Of a stretch of 43,234 nucleotides of DNA, positions 3,139 through 41,034 are shown in pieces. The position numbers and the translations under genes were made by a program. Each line of letters opens with the position of its first letter. Positions within the stretch are counted from its first letter, which is position 1. Source of the DNA: Candidatus Kuenenia stuttgartensis (lineage in GTDB: Bacteria > Planctomycetota > Planctomycetia > Pirellulales > UBA1268); contig CAMDDA010000006.1 of the NCBI GenBank assembly GCA_945890755.1, positions 1-43,234 on the forward strand. Reading direction: 5' to 3'. The notes under the pieces were generated by a model. It was not told the origin of the DNA, ran no database searches, and saw only the letters and a program-made list of their open reading frames with translations.

Positions 3139-3174
3139 TGCGGCCCGCAGCAGGTTGACCTCCTGTGGCGGAGT

Positions 3175-3214
3175 TCGGGGCTGCCCACGCCCCGTCGCCG
3201 GACGCTCGCTGAGG
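3175..3214 (+). repeat. Family C hairpin repeat, copy 1
   Basis: ttCGGGGctgcccacgCCCCGtcgCCGGACGCTCGCTgagg; near-identical to 10815-10855. Confidence 0.7.
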
Positions 3215-3394
3215 TAGCGCAGGTAAAAGGTGCGTCACCGGCTCGGGAGCGGTACAAGTCTCGTCGCGGGACCTCGAAGACTCGGTCCAAATGCTCCTCG
3301 AGCTTGCACCGACCCCCTTGCCTCCCTGGCTGCGCTCGGCGGCATACGCCGGCGACGGGGCACGGGCAGCCCCTCACGGCCGTATTCGCGAACT

Positions 3395-3445
3395 GTAGGC
3401 CCGTTGCTCCGCAACGGGCTGCCCGTCACGGAGTGACGGGCCTAC
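3395..3445 (+). repeat. Family B two-hairpin element, complete 51-bp copy
   Basis: GTAGG-CCCGTTGC-TCC-GCAACGGG-CTG-CCCGTCAC-GGA-GTGACGGG-CCTAC. Confidence 0.9.
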
Positions 3446-3465
3446 GTCAGGCAACGGGCAGCCCC

Positions 3466-6182: not shown

Positions 6183-7721
6183 ATGTCCGTTCTCGCCGAT
6201 CGTCGTGATGCCGCGTGGATCTGCCCGCTTTCGCTCCTCGTAATCGGCCTCGCGGCCGTGGCCGTCGGCTGTGCGCCGGCTGCAGGCCCTGGTGTGCCGG
6301 CTGGCAACGTCGTCGAGACGATCGAGGTGATCTCCGCCGATGAGCCGAAGCCGGCCAACCCCGGCGTGGTCGAAACGGCTGCAGCCGTGCGGAAGGCGGT
6401 CGAGGAGACGAACGAGGCCATCGCCGATGCCGACCAGCGGATTGCCGAGGCGGCGGAGTCGCTCGAACGCAAGGAGACGCCGGCCGAGCAGCAGACGGTC
6501 GCGGCCAAGACGGATGCGTCGTCAGAGCAGGCGAAAGCCGGCGCCGTGGAGCCGAAGAAGACCGCCGCCCCTCGTGAGCCGGTGAAGCTCGGTGATCCGG
6601 CCCTGACGGCGGGCGTGCCCGCGAAAGCCGCCGGCGTACCGATCACGCTTCCCGAGATCACGGAGTGGCTCGACGACCCGAGGAACTTCGTGGAGTTGGA
6701 GCCTGTGCTGCCGCTTGGCCTCTCACAGGGCGCCGCCCAGATCACGGGCCTCGACAAGAACCCACTCACGCGGGCCAAGATCGAACTTGGTCGGCAGCTG
6801 TACTTCGATACGCGGCTCTCGGCCGACTCCACCGTCAGCTGCGCCAGCTGCCACAACCCGGCCGAGGGTTACTCCGCGCATACCACCACCGGCGTGGGCA
6901 TTCGAGGTCAGCTGGGGGGGCGGAATTCCCCCGTCTCATTCAATCGCATCCTGTCGGGGCCGCAGTTCTGGGACGGCCGCGTCGATTCGCTGGAAGCCCA
7001 GGCGGTGGGGCCGATTCAGAATCCGATCGAGATGGGCTTCACCCACGAGGGCGTCGTCAAGCGGCTCAGCGAGATTCCGGTCTACCAGCGGCAGTTCGAG
7101 AAGATTTTTGGCGAGCTCACGATCGACCGCGTCGGTGAGGCGATCGCAGCCTTCGAGCGGGTGCTCGTGACGGCGCCATCCCCCTATGATTATGGCGAGC
7201 AACTGCGGGCCTTCGCCGGCCTCGACGAGGACGACATCGCCGACGATCCCGAATTGGCCGCCAAATATGCGGCTGCGAAGGAGGCGGCCGTGGCCCATCC
7301 GATGAGCGAGTCGGCCCAGCGCGGTCGCGACATCTTCTTCAGCGAGAAGGGGAACTGCACCGCCTGCCACGTCGGGGCCAATCTCGCCGACGAGCAGTAC
7401 CACAACATCGGCATCGGCATGGACAAGGAGCAGCCCGACCTGGGCCGATTCGTTGTCACGAAGGACGAGAAGGACACCGGCGCCTTCAAGACGCCCACGG
7501 TGCGCAACGTGGCCCTCACGGCTCCCTACATGCACGACGGCTCGGTGGCGACGCTCGAAGAAGTCGTCGAGTGGTACGACAAGGGGGGCCACCCCAATCC
7601 GCACCTCAGCGGCAAGATCAGGCCACTCAAGCTCACGCCGCAGGAGAAGGCCGACCTCGTCGAGTTCATGAAGGCCTGCACGGGCCCCACGCCGACCGTC
7701 GAAACCAGCCGCCTTCCCTGA
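6183..7721 (+). CDS. Di-heme cytochrome c peroxidase/MauG family lipoprotein-like
   Basis: Two CXXCH motifs (CASCH, CTACH), RNSPVSFNRILSGPQFWDGRVDSLEAQA, FKTPTVRNVALTAPYMHDGS. Confidence 0.92.
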   Translation: MSVLADRRDAAWICPLSLLVIGLAAVAVGCAPAAGPGVPAGNVVETIEVISADEPKPANPGVVETAAAVRKAVEETNEAIADADQRIAEAAESLERKETPAEQQTVAAKTDASSEQAKAGAVEPKKTAAPREPVKLGDPALTAGVPAKAAGVPITLPEITEWLDDPRNFVELEPVLPLGLSQGAAQITGLDKNPLTRAKIELGRQLYFDTRLSADSTVSCASCHNPAEGYSAHTTTGVGIRGQLGGRNSPVSFNRILSGPQFWDGRVDSLEAQAVGPIQNPIEMGFTHEGVVKRLSEIPVYQRQFEKIFGELTIDRVGEAIAAFERVLVTAPSPYDYGEQLRAFAGLDEDDIADDPELAAKYAAAKEAAVAHPMSESAQRGRDIFFSEKGNCTACHVGANLADEQYHNIGIGMDKEQPDLGRFVVTKDEKDTGAFKTPTVRNVALTAPYMHDGSVATLEEVVEWYDKGGHPNPHLSGKIRPLKLTPQEKADLVEFMKACTGPTPTVETSRLP

Positions 7722-7740
7722 GCGCTGGCGCGGGGACGCT

Positions 7741-7884
7741 CATACAAGCCCTGAGCGCGAGCGCCGGGATTCCTCCGCGCGCGATCCCCCGGCTTGCGCC
7801 TGGGGGCTTTTATGGGAGGGGATCTCCTGGCTTGCGCCTGGGGCTTTTGACGCTCATACAAGCCCTGAGCGCGAGCAACGGGAT
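7741..7884. repeat. Family A repeat cluster (A2 + orientation at 7741-7770 and 7855-7884; A1 - orientation at 7783-7814; degenerate A1 at 7821-7848)
   Basis: catacaagccctgagcgcgagcgccgggat / gatcccccggcttgcgcctgggggcttttatg copies. Confidence 0.85.
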
Positions 7885-7942
7885 TCCGTCGCCCCACGGC
7901 AGGCGTCATACTCGGGGGCTCGCCGCAGGCACTCCGACGCAC

Positions 7943-10786: not shown

Positions 10787-10814
10787 GGGTGACGTTCAAT
10801 GCCTCTGGGATAGG

Positions 10815-10855
10815 TCGGGGTTGCCCATGCCCCGACAGCCGGACGCTCGCTTAGG
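10815..10855 (+). repeat. Family C hairpin repeat, copy 2
   Basis: tCGGGGttgcccatgCCCCGacagCCGGACGCTCGCTtagg; matches 3175-3214. Confidence 0.7.
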
Positions 10856-10927
10856 GCATCCTGCCCTGCGCTCGCTCGGATGCCGCCCGCGGCCTGCTCG
10901 CGCTGATCATGCCGCGCCGTTGAGCGT

Positions 10928-17556: not shown

Positions 17557-17958
17557 ATGATCACCACCGCCACTCGTCCGCCGCGCGACACCGTGATCTA
17601 CGACGGACACTGTCGGTTTTGTCGCAGCCAGATCGCAGTGCTTCGTCGGCTGGATCTGGGCGGCAGTCTCGAGTTTGTATCGCAGCACGACCCGAGCGTG
17701 CCGCGGGACTATCCGGAACTGTCGGCGGATGATCTGCACGCGCAGATGTTCGTGATCGACCGCGCCGGTCGGGCTCGTGGCGGCGCCGAGGCGGTGCGGT
17801 ATCTATCGCGGCGGCTGCCTTTGCTGTGGCCGCTCGCGGTGTTGCTGCACGTGCCGGGCAGCCTGCCGGTGTGGTCGGCGGCGTACCGATTCGTGGCCCG
17901 CCATCGCTTTCGTATCGCCGGCAGTTGCGACGACGGCACGTGCCGGCTCCCGCCGTGA
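17557..17958 (+). CDS. DCC-family thiol-disulfide oxidoreductase (DUF393)
   Basis: VIYDGHCRFCRSQIAVLRRLD with CXXC, C-terminal WSAAYRFVARHRFRI. Confidence 0.88.
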   Translation: MITTATRPPRDTVIYDGHCRFCRSQIAVLRRLDLGGSLEFVSQHDPSVPRDYPELSADDLHAQMFVIDRAGRARGGAEAVRYLSRRLPLLWPLAVLLHVPGSLPVWSAAYRFVARHRFRIAGSCDDGTCRLPP

Positions 17959-17961
17959 GGA

Positions 17962-18187
17962 ATCCCCCGGCTTGCGCCTGGGGGCTTGTATGGGGACGAA
18001 TTCGCCCGCTTTCATACAAGCCCTGAGCGCAAGCGCGGGGATGCGGTGGCCAGGAACGTGATCCCCCGGCTTGCGCCTGGGGGCTTGTATGGGGACGAAT
18101 TTGCCCGCTTTCATACAAGCCCTGAGCGCAAGCGAGGGGATGCGGCTGCCAGGAACGCGATCCCCCGGCTTGTGCCTGGGGGCTTCC
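17962..18187. repeat. Tandem 99-bp composite array of family A hairpins (A1 - orientation at 17962, 18061, 18160; A2 + orientation at 18013-18042 and 18112-18141)
   Basis: atcccccggcttg(c/t)gcctgggggctt at exact 99-bp spacing with shared spacer ggggacgaatttgcccgctttcatacaagccctgagcgcaagcg. Confidence 0.93.
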
Positions 18188-18198
18188 TTGCGACGTGC

Positions 18199-20196: not shown

Positions 20197-20231
20197 GGTG
20201 GAAGTGTAGCGGAACGTGGGATCCCCTCGCT

Positions 20232-20302
20232 CATACAAGCCCCCAGGCGCAAGCCGGGGGATCGATTCTGCATACAAGCCCCCAGGCGCAAGCCGGGGGA
20301 TT
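20232..20302 (+). repeat. Family A1 hairpins, two tandem + orientation copies (20232-20263, 20271-20302)
   Basis: catacaagcccccaggcgcaagccgggggat twice. Confidence 0.92.
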
Positions 20303-22286: not shown

Positions 22287-22422
22287 TGCAGCAACTCCCT
22301 GCAAGACATCCTGGGTGTCATCCGGCCTGCGGTGCCTGGTGCAGGCGGGCGGGGAAGGTAGGGAGCGGCGGCCTTGGCCGCAAGACCGCAGGCAGGCTGC
22401 AAAATCGGTGCTTCGTCTTGCG

Positions 22423-22580
22423 CAGGCCTGTTGCTCCGCAACGGGCAGCTCGGTTCTGTAGGCCTGTTGCTCCGCAACGGGCAGCCCGGTTCTGTAGGCC
22501 TGTTGCTCCGCAACGGGCAGCCTGGTTCCGTAGGCCTGTTGCTCCGCAACGGGCAGCTCGTCACGGAGTGACGGGCCTAC
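22423..22580 (+). repeat. Family B tandem array: four left-arm hairpins at 36-bp period plus one terminal right arm
   Basis: (c/t)aggcctgttgctccgcaacgggcag... at 22423, 22459, 22495, 22531, then tcgtcacggagtgacgggcctac. Confidence 0.93.
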
Positions 22581-22589
22581 GGGCCGCTG

Positions 22590-23920: not shown

Positions 23921-24038
23921 AATACAAGCCCCCAGGCGCAAGCCGGGGGATCCCCTCGCTTCATACAAGCCCCCAGGCGCAAGCCGGGGGATTTCGTTGC
24001 GGAACCCCGGATCCCCTCGCTCGCGATCAGGGCTTTTA
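23921..24038. repeat. Family A hairpins: A1 + copies at 23921-23952 and 23962-23992, diverged A2-like - copy at about 24010-24038
   Basis: aatacaagcccccaggcgcaagccgggggatc and tcatacaagcccccaggcgcaagccgggggat. Confidence 0.88.
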
Positions 24039-24068
24039 TTGGGGACGGGGAATCGTGCCGCTTGCCCG

Positions 24069-30396: not shown

Positions 30397-31443
30397 ATGG
30401 ATTGTTCCAAGCTGCTGCCGATCGCCTGCCTGCTCGTGGCCGTCGCCGGGATTCCGGGACGAGCCGTCGGGCAGTCTCCGCCGTCGGCCGACGCCCGTCG
30501 CTACGTCATCGCCGACGCGCTCTTTCTGCAGCGGAACAACGCCACCCGCGAACAGGCCCTCGTGGTGAATGCCACCGATACGAACGTGCCGGTGGTGACT
30601 GCGAACGGCCTCGACTCACAGATCGGCACAGGCGTCCGGCTGCTCTACGGCGACTACGGCTGCGACAGCCTCGGCTGGGAAGTCGGCTACACCGGCATCT
30701 ACGGCATGGACGTCGATCGCTGGTTCGAGAGCGATGGCGACATCCTCCAGGCCGGCGGAGAGCCCGGGTTCGCGGAAGCCACCGGCCTGATCGATGGCCA
30801 GCGGGCTGATGTGTCATACCGATCGCAGATCAACTCACTCGAAGCGAATACGGTCTTCAACTCGTTCGATGGCGGCCGCGATCGCCGGTCGCCCTATCCG
30901 TGGCAGCGGAGCCCCGGCTACGAAGGAGGCCACGTCGACTGGCTCCTGGGTGTCCGCTGGGCCGGCCTCGAGGAGGCGGCCCAGATGGCGATCACGCCAG
31001 GTGGCTATCCGACGGCCAACACCTACGACGTGCAGGCGAGCTCCAATCTCTTCGCGGCGCAGGTTGGCACCCGCGGCCGCTGGGCCTGGCAGAACTGGGC
31101 CTTCGAAGGCTGGATGAAGATCGGCCTCGCCGGCAGCGTGCTCTCGCAGTCGCAGTCGATGTTCGACCAGCTCGCGCCCGGGGACCCGTTCCGTTCGCCA
31201 CGGTCGAGCGATGACCTCGGCATGGGCATGATCGCCGACATGAATGCGTCGCTGATCTACCGCCTCACCGACACCTGGGGTCTGCGGCTCGGCTACAACC
31301 TGTTCTGGCTCACGGGAGTGGCCCTCGCCCCCGACTCCTGGGATCTCACGACGAACACCGGCCCCGACGCCGGCACGGAGATCCGCAGCACCGGCAGCGT
31401 GTTTCTCAACGGTGCGAATGTCGGCCTCGAGGCCCGCTGGTAG
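30397..31443 (+). CDS. BBP7-like outer-membrane beta-barrel protein
   Basis: Signal peptide MDCSKLLPIACLLVAVAGIPGRAVGQ; Gly/Tyr/Trp-rich beta-strand pattern; C-terminal RLTDTWGLRLGYNLFWLTGVALAP...NGANVGLEARW. The 28174 start in the ORF track is read-through. Confidence 0.75.
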   Translation: MDCSKLLPIACLLVAVAGIPGRAVGQSPPSADARRYVIADALFLQRNNATREQALVVNATDTNVPVVTANGLDSQIGTGVRLLYGDYGCDSLGWEVGYTGIYGMDVDRWFESDGDILQAGGEPGFAEATGLIDGQRADVSYRSQINSLEANTVFNSFDGGRDRRSPYPWQRSPGYEGGHVDWLLGVRWAGLEEAAQMAITPGGYPTANTYDVQASSNLFAAQVGTRGRWAWQNWAFEGWMKIGLAGSVLSQSQSMFDQLAPGDPFRSPRSSDDLGMGMIADMNASLIYRLTDTWGLRLGYNLFWLTGVALAPDSWDLTTNTGPDAGTEIRSTGSVFLNGANVGLEARW

Positions 31444-31560
31444 GCCCGTTGCTCCGCCCCTCGTAGGCCCGTTGCTCCGCCCCTCGTAGGCCCGTTGCTC
31501 CGCCCCTCGTAGGCCCGTTGCTCCGCAACGGGCAGCCCGTCACGGCGTGACGGGGATACG
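31441..31560 (+). repeat. Family B tandem array: three truncated 23-bp left-arm units followed by one complete element
   Basis: taggcccgttgctccgcccctcg at 31441, 31464, 31487; full element from 31510 ending cagcccgtcacggcgtgacggggatacg. Confidence 0.93.
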
Positions 31561-33166: not shown

Positions 33167-33199
33167 GAATCAGTTGCGGCGGTCGGGCTGACGCCCGAT

Positions 33200-33308
33200 A
33201 TCCCCCGGCTCGCGCCTGGGGGCTTTTATGAGGAGTATCCCCCGGCTCGCGCCTGGGGGCTTCCTTCGACTCTCGGCATAGAAGCCCCCATGCGCAAGCA
33301 GGGGGATC
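33200..33308. repeat. Family A1 hairpins: two - copies (33200-33230, 33237-33264; GCGA loop) and one + copy (33277-33308; compensated stem TGC/GCA)
   Basis: atcccccggctcgcgcctgggggctt x2; catagaagcccccatgcgcaagcagggggatc. Confidence 0.9.
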
Positions 33309-36967: not shown

Positions 36968-37085
36968 GATCCCCCTGCTTGCGCATGGGGGCTTCTATGG
37001 TGCGGTCATGGGTGCGATCGTGCGCATGGGGGCTTCTATGGTGCGGTCAGGGGTGCTGTCGTGCGCACCGGCGCTTCTCTACGGC
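36968..37085 (-). repeat. Family A1 hairpin (36968-36999) and its decaying 41-bp tandem array
   Basis: gatccccctgcttgcgcatgggggcttctatg; tgcgcatgggggcttctatggtgcggtca at 36980 and 37021, degenerate copy at 37062. Confidence 0.88.
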
Positions 37086-39964: not shown

Positions 39965-40884
39965 TGGGCATGCTGACGCGCACGCCCCTGGGGCGGATGT
40001 GGGACGAGTGGCGGCACCGCGGGCACCAGGCGGGCGACGACGCCGAAGACTTCCTGCTCGTGACGTGGGACTCCTGCCGCTACGACGTCTACAGCGATGC
40101 CCACACGCCCGTGCTCGACCGCCATGGCCCGGCGCAGCGGGCCTGGGCGATGGCCACCTACACGCTGCCGGCGCATCAGGCGATGTTCAACGGCTTTTTG
40201 CCGCACGTGTTCGAGCCGCTGCCCTTCTACAACCGCTACGTGCAGCAGCTGTGGCGGATTTCCCACCGCAATCTCGCCGTGCGGCCGCTGGTGACGTTTC
40301 CGGAGGCCACGGTCAGCATCGTCGACGGCTTCCGCCGGCGCGGCTATGCCACGGTCGGCGTCGCGGCGATGGACTGGTTCGCGAAGCCGAGCCCGCTGCA
40401 GGACGGTTTCGAGTGGTTTCGCGTGACGGGCACGGCGGCCCGCGAGCAGGTGCGGCTCGTGTGCGAGCAGGTGGAGCGGCGGGCCCGCCGCCGGCCGTGC
40501 TTCGCCTTCATCAATTTCGGCGAGACGCACAGCCCGTTTCGGCACGCGGAGATGCCGCCCCTCGCGGCGGATCCCGTCGCCGAGCGGATGAGCCTCGGCC
40601 GGCTGTTCAACGCGGGAGGCGTGCCCGATGCGGCCGGCATGCTCGATCGTGGGCTTTGGGATCGGCAGCGGGAGTGTGCCGAATATCTCGATCGACGGAT
40701 GGCCGATCTCTTGGCCTGCTTCATCGCCCGTGGCCGCCCGACCACGGTGGTGGTGACGGCCGATCATGGCGAGTGCCTCGGCGAGCAGGGCCTCTTCGGC
40801 CATGCCTTCCATCACGAGAAGGTGATGGAGGTGCCGCTCCTCATCTTCCGGCTCAACGCGCCGCCGCACGCGCCGCCCGCGTAG
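39964..40884 (+). CDS. Sulfatase-like / alkaline phosphatase superfamily hydrolase
   Basis: FLLVTWDSCRYDVY metal site, TYTLPAHQAMFNGFLPH, VVVTADHGECLGEQGLFGHAFHHEKVMEVPLLI. Confidence 0.82.
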   Translation: MGMLTRTPLGRMWDEWRHRGHQAGDDAEDFLLVTWDSCRYDVYSDAHTPVLDRHGPAQRAWAMATYTLPAHQAMFNGFLPHVFEPLPFYNRYVQQLWRISHRNLAVRPLVTFPEATVSIVDGFRRRGYATVGVAAMDWFAKPSPLQDGFEWFRVTGTAAREQVRLVCEQVERRARRRPCFAFINFGETHSPFRHAEMPPLAADPVAERMSLGRLFNAGGVPDAAGMLDRGLWDRQRECAEYLDRRMADLLACFIARGRPTTVVVTADHGECLGEQGLFGHAFHHEKVMEVPLLIFRLNAPPHAPPA

Positions 40885-40933
40885 GCCCGTTGCCCAGCAA
40901 CGGGAGCGGCCCGTCACGGAGTGACGGGCCTAC
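40881..40933 (+). repeat. Family B two-hairpin element, complete copy
   Basis: GTAGGCCCGTTGC-CCA-GCAACGGG-AGCGG-CCCGTCAC-GGA-GTGACGGGCCTAC. Confidence 0.88.
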
Positions 40934-41034
40934 GGTGGGGCGTTTGCAGGTGTGTGCTTCTACGGGCATGATGCGGAGCCACGAGCCTCGTTCATTTCGG
41001 CGACGCTCGACGTGAAGCCGGCGGCACACGCACA

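Follow-up and report, generated by a model that had tools for sequence, protein, structure and literature searches.

Dispersed hairpins in a Planctomycetota genome: a REP/REPIN family and its probable class-3-like RAYT

The closest described relatives of the repeats reported here are short hairpins associated with Y1 tyrosine transposases (RAYTs). The known TnpA_REP enzymes recognize the foot, the bulge and the loop of a REP that has folded as single-stranded DNA, and they bind just one of its two strands (PMC8266576). In Pseudomonas and E. coli, a cognate tyrosine transposase resides amid hundreds of copies of short extragenic hairpins, which carry an unpaired 5' foot and form the inverted pairs and arrays of REPINs and BIMEs (PMC3116915, PMC2817692). 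Small palindromes tagged with GTAG or CGTC and located between genes, near the 3' ends of ORFs, have been reported from Planctomycetes too (PMC3733652). According to a 2018 study, class 3 TnpA_Y1 enzymes carry a Y----Q signature and occur mainly in Planctomycetes and Acidobacteria; it presents these class 3 RAYTs as rare proteins of little-understood behavior that may stand between insertion sequences and the transposases of REPs (PMC6006769).

The dispersed hairpins that we designate Family A share with the Pseudomonas and E. coli REPINs all of the traits listed above, and their intergenic location near ORF 3' ends is also that of the GTAG and CGTC REPs. Unlike the REPINs of Pseudomonas and E. 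coli, they have no GTAG tag and their arms differ in kind, one (A1) having a bulged A and the other (A2) an internal loop. The AAG foot, which is neither GT[AG]G nor CGTC, separates Family A from the GTAG (class 2) and CGTC REPs. With its unpaired stem base, its short 5' guide and its predicted recognition by a Y1 enzyme in single-stranded form, the irregular hairpin is reminiscent of the ends of IS200/IS605 elements (IS608, ISDra2), but Family A hairpins spread alone at hundreds of copies and the transposase gene is present once. Similarities to the class 3 TnpA_Y1 system include the Y----Q and HuH motifs, a length near 178 aa and atypical flanking hairpins that sometimes reach high copy number (PMC6006769). 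Unlike the foot published for class 3 hairpins, CnGA (the authors' notation is uncertain), the foot here is (N)AAG, with 8–9 nt arms and a cGNNAg loop (PMC6006769). Because the foot is AAG in the host, and (N)AG in 47 loci of the phylum, rather than the published CnGA, we classed the repeats with REP/REPIN elements and call the enzyme class-3-like, which stops short of proven class 3 membership for either.

The dispersed hairpins are a known type of bacterial repeat (REP/REPIN with RAYT) rather than a new RNA family, and a single DNA element of the REP/REPIN type has A1 as one arm and A2 as the other. The earlier note on this DNA knew of no described family with such a signature, yet the family type had already been described. 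New here are the A1/A2 family itself and a phylum-wide consensus for poorly studied elements. We are highly confident that Family A is a REP/REPIN family with a class-3-like RAYT, and a single-strand-DNA transposase gene elsewhere in the host genome very probably aided its spread.

The A1 and A2 units and their arrangement

The window is the whole stretch of 43,234 nt that was analyzed, from a host assembly (GCA_945890755.1) that is 88% complete and has 309 contigs; regions totalling 849 kb were sampled for copy-level statistics. All 12 A1 positions listed in the earlier note hold an A1 unit, with cores at 7786, 17964, 18063, 18162, 20240, 20279, 23929, 23970, 33202, 33239, 33285 and 36971. 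An additional, degenerate A1 lies at 7824, and six A2 units lie at 7716 (degenerate), 7749, 7863, 18021, 18120 and 24013. The units are arranged as follows:

17961..18190, mixed strands: REP array A1(-) A2(+) A1(-) A2(+) A1(-), made up of two repeats of 99 bp and a further A1
17961..17992, minus strand: A1 unit with tail CATACAAG, 5 bp, bulged A, 3 bp and GCAA
18013..18043, plus strand: A2 unit with tail CATACAAG and CCCTGAGC-GCAA-GCGCGGGG
18060..18091, minus strand: A1 unit
18112..18142, plus strand: A2 unit, CCCTGAGC-GCAA-GCGAGGGG
18159..18190, minus strand: A1 unit with loop ACAA and tail CAAGGAAG
7708..7885, mixed strands: cluster A2(+, degenerate) A2(+) A1(-) A1(-, degenerate) A2(+), between co-directional genes
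20232..20302, plus strand: two direct A1 units, with a truncated A2 piece (GATCCCCTCGCTC) ahead at about 20220–20232
23921..24040, mixed strands: cluster A1(+) A1(+) A2(-)
33199..33308, mixed strands: cluster A1(-) A1(-) A1(+, TGC/GCA variant)
36968..36999, minus strand: single A1, TGC/GCA variant, directly past a stop codon

The array at 17961..18190 has convergent genes on either side and starts directly past the stop codon at 17956–17958. Beside the 36971 copy, two near-identical direct repeats (GCATGGGGGCTTCTATGGTGCGGTCA...) at 36980–37060, not found in the relative G008, apparently arose when part of the REP was duplicated together with flanking sequence.

The A1 unit consists of CATANAAG followed by CCCCC-A-GGC-GCAA-GCC-GGGGG and then AT(C); conservation thus reaches past the hairpin, both to its 5' tail, CATANAAG, and to the AT(C) that trails it, and these are parts of the unit. 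Its predicted fold (5 bp, bulged A, 3 bp, GCAA; z = -3.2 with DNA and -3.7 with RNA energy models) agrees with the 8-bp stem, bulged A and GCAA loop drawn in the earlier note. Among 92 sampled A1 copies, the bulged base is A in 86 and the loop is GCAA in 68, GCGA in 16 and GCCA in 3; the loop exceptions previously reported, ACAA at 18162 and GCGA at 33202 and 33239, are both correct. The A2 unit has CATACAAG, then CCCTGAGC-GCRA-GCGAGGGG and AT, and in 48 of 77 copies TGAG lies opposite CGAG in mid-stem to form an internal loop of the tandem G-A type. The unpaired 5' foot CATANAAG is common to both, with each base of AAG kept in 82–84 of 86 A1 and in 66–68 of 69 A2 copies. The A1 stem also varies by a two-sided G-C to T-A change (TGC/GCA) that had been read as compensatory. 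The change is indeed present at 33285 and 36971, and in 4 of the 92 copies overall, but two further copies have broken pairs at that position. Furthermore, the 36971 copy is unchanged in G008, so these variants are at least partly one copied variant rather than independent events.

The whole assembly contains 259 matches to A1 (≤2 mismatches), compared to 1 for the reversed pattern used as a control. In the 849-kb sample, where ≤3 mismatches were allowed and the reversed sequence served as control, we counted 86 A1 and 69 A2 units versus 1 of each, which bears out the sister form A2 that had been proposed. What was claimed as a dispersed, oriented and structure-constrained hairpin with preserved bulge and loop and some compensatory change is a sound description. 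The sampled units form 58 clusters, only 11 of them singletons. Within clusters, 73 of 97 steps between neighbors are to the opposite strand, and 68 of these join A1 with A2. Core spacing is also preferred, with a mode of 22 nt when tails face each other and with 2, 15, 17 and 22 nt favored when loops do. This arrangement of A1 and A2 is the REPIN/BIME architecture. A1 and A2 join as inverted pairs into REPINs and BIME-like arrays, most probably short non-autonomous DNA elements.

The class-3-like RAYT and orthologous sites in a relative

Two genes of the assembly match Y1_Tnp, one on contig C105 and one on contig C295. The C105 gene (L009 1420–2091, minus strand) codes for a RAYT (NF047646, E = 2.8e-17) and has GTAGGCCCGTTGCTCCGCAACGGGC of a different, GTAG-tagged repeat family on its flanks. 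The C295 gene has an intact frame for a protein of 172 aa with HuH (THVH) and YVVECQ motifs, and inverted A2-A1 pairs on both flanks. It is the sole class-3-like RAYT gene found in the assembly, though a second could be missing from the data because the assembly is 88% complete. The C295 protein matches the Y1_Tnp, REP_Tyr_transpos and IS200 models, with weak family scores under the curated cut-offs, and is related weakly and about equally to REP and IS200 transposases. Residues H97, Y158 and Q163 are invariant across the 18 aligned proteins. A sequence-profile search of solved structures gave no match to the protein, and we therefore compared folds. An AlphaFold model (pLDDT 90.6) of L083, a relative 56% identical to the C295 protein, had only Y1 transposases among its best 30 PDB matches, including ISDra2, IS608 and the REP-bound E. 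coli structure 4ER8, at moderate Foldseek TM-scores (0.42–0.50). Class membership was judged from the motifs of the C295 protein, whose Y----Q is the published class 3 signature, and these point to a class-3-like enzyme.

By analogy with these relatives, transposition and strand-specific recognition can be inferred for Family A. A single strand would fold to expose the 5' foot CATANAAG, an irregular hairpin and a cGNNAg loop, which the C295 Y1/HUH transposase would bind and cut. The enzyme would read the foot, the bulge or internal loop, and the tetraloop on one strand, and may then move or copy the units. Most copies are presumably neutral to the host.

Comparison with G008, whose sequence is mostly 84–93% identical to the window over the alignable parts, revealed differences in the occupancy of orthologous sites, which we compared with an affine-gap aligner. 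Of the six clusters of the window, two are absent in G008 (20240 and 23929, the latter with an empty site), and the sites at 33202 and 7716 have other repeat-like sequence instead. At 17962, where the host has five units, G008 has one hairpin, CCCCA-A-GGC-GCAA-GCC-TGGGG. Its fifth pair is A-T versus C-G in A1, a two-sided change that keeps the pairing. The tail of this lone copy, CAAGAAAG, resembles the CAAGGAAG tail of the A1 at 18159..18190, which is thus possibly the ancestral copy of the array. The hairpin at 36971 is common to both genomes and identical. Gain in the host is the simpler reading of the differences because it has 252 copies and G008 only 10; site by site, loss in G008 could also cause absence.

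The copies could also be relics of a REP family that spread in the past and is now immobile in this genome, a variant of the main reading rather than an alternative to it. Degenerate or truncated copies (7716, 7824 and 20220) and the age of the 36971 copy that G008 shares are consistent with such a past. However, 52 of the 92 sampled A1 cores match the consensus exactly, the reading frame of the RAYT is unbroken and keeps the HuH and Y motifs, and the host has an amplified family compared to G008, all of which makes immobility unlikely. With an intact enzyme, an amplified family in one genome and alignable sites in a close relative, both the rules of recognition and mobility itself are open to direct testing.

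Position relative to genes and the case for an RNA role

Family A is largely extragenic. Gene calls made with a simple codon model built for this analysis assigned about 87% of the sampled sequence as coding, yet 134 of the 155 sampled copies are intergenic and 13 lie inside predicted genes. Clusters occupy convergent gaps more often than divergent ones (16 of 75 versus 6 of 108, p = 0.002), and their density per kb falls from 1.41 in convergent to 0.50 in co-directional and 0.19 in divergent gaps. The median distance to a stop codon is 28 bp. Between co-directional genes, we found no strand bias, with 42 sense and 34 antisense copies, or 16 versus 10 when clusters are counted (p = 0.33). A sense bias of A2 alone (27 versus 10 copies) was gone once each cluster was counted once.

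This crowding downstream of stop codons is what would be expected if the hairpins were functional RNA (3' end stabilizers, processing sites or terminators) kept by selection on transcripts; the earlier note had inferred selection at the RNA level. The hairpins also fold well as RNA with loop and bulge kept, and REPs elsewhere in bacteria are known to stabilize mRNA or stop transcription (PMC6006769). Selection at the RNA level is, however, difficult to reconcile with the lack of sense bias and with copies that often lie between convergent genes. RNA GNRA loops have a purine at position 3. In the relatives' hairpins, position 3 is often a pyrimidine (GCTA in 8 loci, GCCA in 7 and GTCA in 1), and many hairpin copies in G013, a congener, have the loop GTCA. 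The rule for the loop is therefore GNNA rather than strictly the GNRA that had been proposed. As DNA, d(cGNNAg) forms a stable tetraloop that was obtained by selection (Nakano 2002, cited in PMC8373063). Furthermore, an Rfam search of the window gave no match at the gathering threshold, and the family, linked to a transposase, is specific to its lineage. We consider an RNA function very improbable as the explanation of the family, although some copies may have an effect as RNA in addition. The sense of the element, with its conserved strand, loop, bulge and tail, is accounted for by a Y1 transposase that recognizes one folded DNA strand, and selection on RNA is not needed. The class-3-like RAYT system accounts for a class of repeats that can be mistaken for RNA elements.

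Hairpins and enzymes across Planctomycetota

Copies of A1 number 252 in the host genome versus 0–10 in 21 congeners. Three congeners (G005, G016 and G013) have a homologous RAYT about 48% identical to the C295 protein, with its own hairpin family on the flanks. Their hairpins follow the plan of A1 with other stems (for example, AAG-CCGA-A-GGCC-GTAA-GGCC-TCGG) and are present in 44, 58 and 105 copies at home but absent from the host genome. Hence, four genomes of the host's genus have hairpins at high copy (44–252). Because the RAYT flanks of relatives keep the hairpin plan but differ in the stems, enzyme and repeat have changed together.

The association extends to the phylum, where one scan found 268 stretches encoding relatives of the class-3-like RAYT, in many Planctomycetota genomes. 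Rubripirellula and Blastopirellula have related genes. We compared the flanks of 75 loci with enough flanking sequence, drawn from 80 named Planctomycetota loci plus the host genome's own. Both flanks contain an identical 16-mer in 62 of the 75 loci versus 15 of 225 mismatched flank pairings. Among 67 loci with shared 14-mers, AG-(8–9 nt)-C-GNNA-G is present in 47 (the motifs were chosen regardless of the 3' arm); far fewer have unrelated feet or loops, and hardly any have arms of other lengths. When pairing was required, the search yielded 131 hits and 25 loci with both flanks hit, compared to about 1.6 and 0 in shuffled flanks. Of the 80 loci, 20 passed a filter that demanded strict, recurring hairpins of 8 bp. 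For covariation, motifs were picked regardless of the 3' arm, except that the closing C-G had to be present. Across families, bulge-type hairpins showed modest covariation at several pairs (p ~0.002–0.04, 13 distinct sequences); internal-loop-type hairpins showed none across families, their sequence being conserved and the middle unpaired. By itself, covariation is thus weak evidence, and it is gene association and copy behavior that carry the case.

Bacterial genomes commonly have short palindromes near the ends of genes, but the notion that these are independent MITE-type or other palindromic repeats (terminators, protein binding sites), close to RAYT genes by accident, is scarcely credible when 62 of 75 RAYT loci share flank sequence versus 7% in the control, the foot, arm and loop plan stays constant as the stems change, and the consensus has no T-run after the hairpin. 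Whether the class-3-like RAYTs and their hairpins constitute a separate, phylum-wide REP system of the Planctomycetota, with an AG foot, an irregular arm of 8–9 nt, C-GNNA-G, asymmetric A1/A2 REPINs (here) and enzyme and stem changing together, is a proposition that we judge evenly balanced.

Other repeats were observed alongside Family A. The hairpin family AAGCCCGWGGC-GCGA-GCCRAGGG has 22 matches in G000, 41 in G008, where it adjoins the enzyme gene, and 26 in G015, so that the host genome too has copies of this family. In the Planctomycetaceae MAG RE-18aug17-209 (L084), a near-identical hairpin without the bulge, CATAAAAG CCCCCGGC-GCAA-GCCGGGGG, surrounds the RAYT. The GTAG-tagged REPINs (GTAGGCCCGTTGCTCCGCAACGGGC ... 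GCCCGTCACGGAGTGACGGGCCTAC) constitute a second REP family, found in the window at 3390–3446, 22417–22581, 31435–31560 and 40876–40934 and as about 94 half copies in the 849-kb sample. At 31435–31532, a truncated half unit of this family is repeated in tandem every 23 bp, with the complete one last. A third dispersed repeat of about 75–90 nt is located at 10801–10890, with a partial copy at 3172–3214; it has 21 BLAST matches in the 849-kb sample and about 30 in G008.
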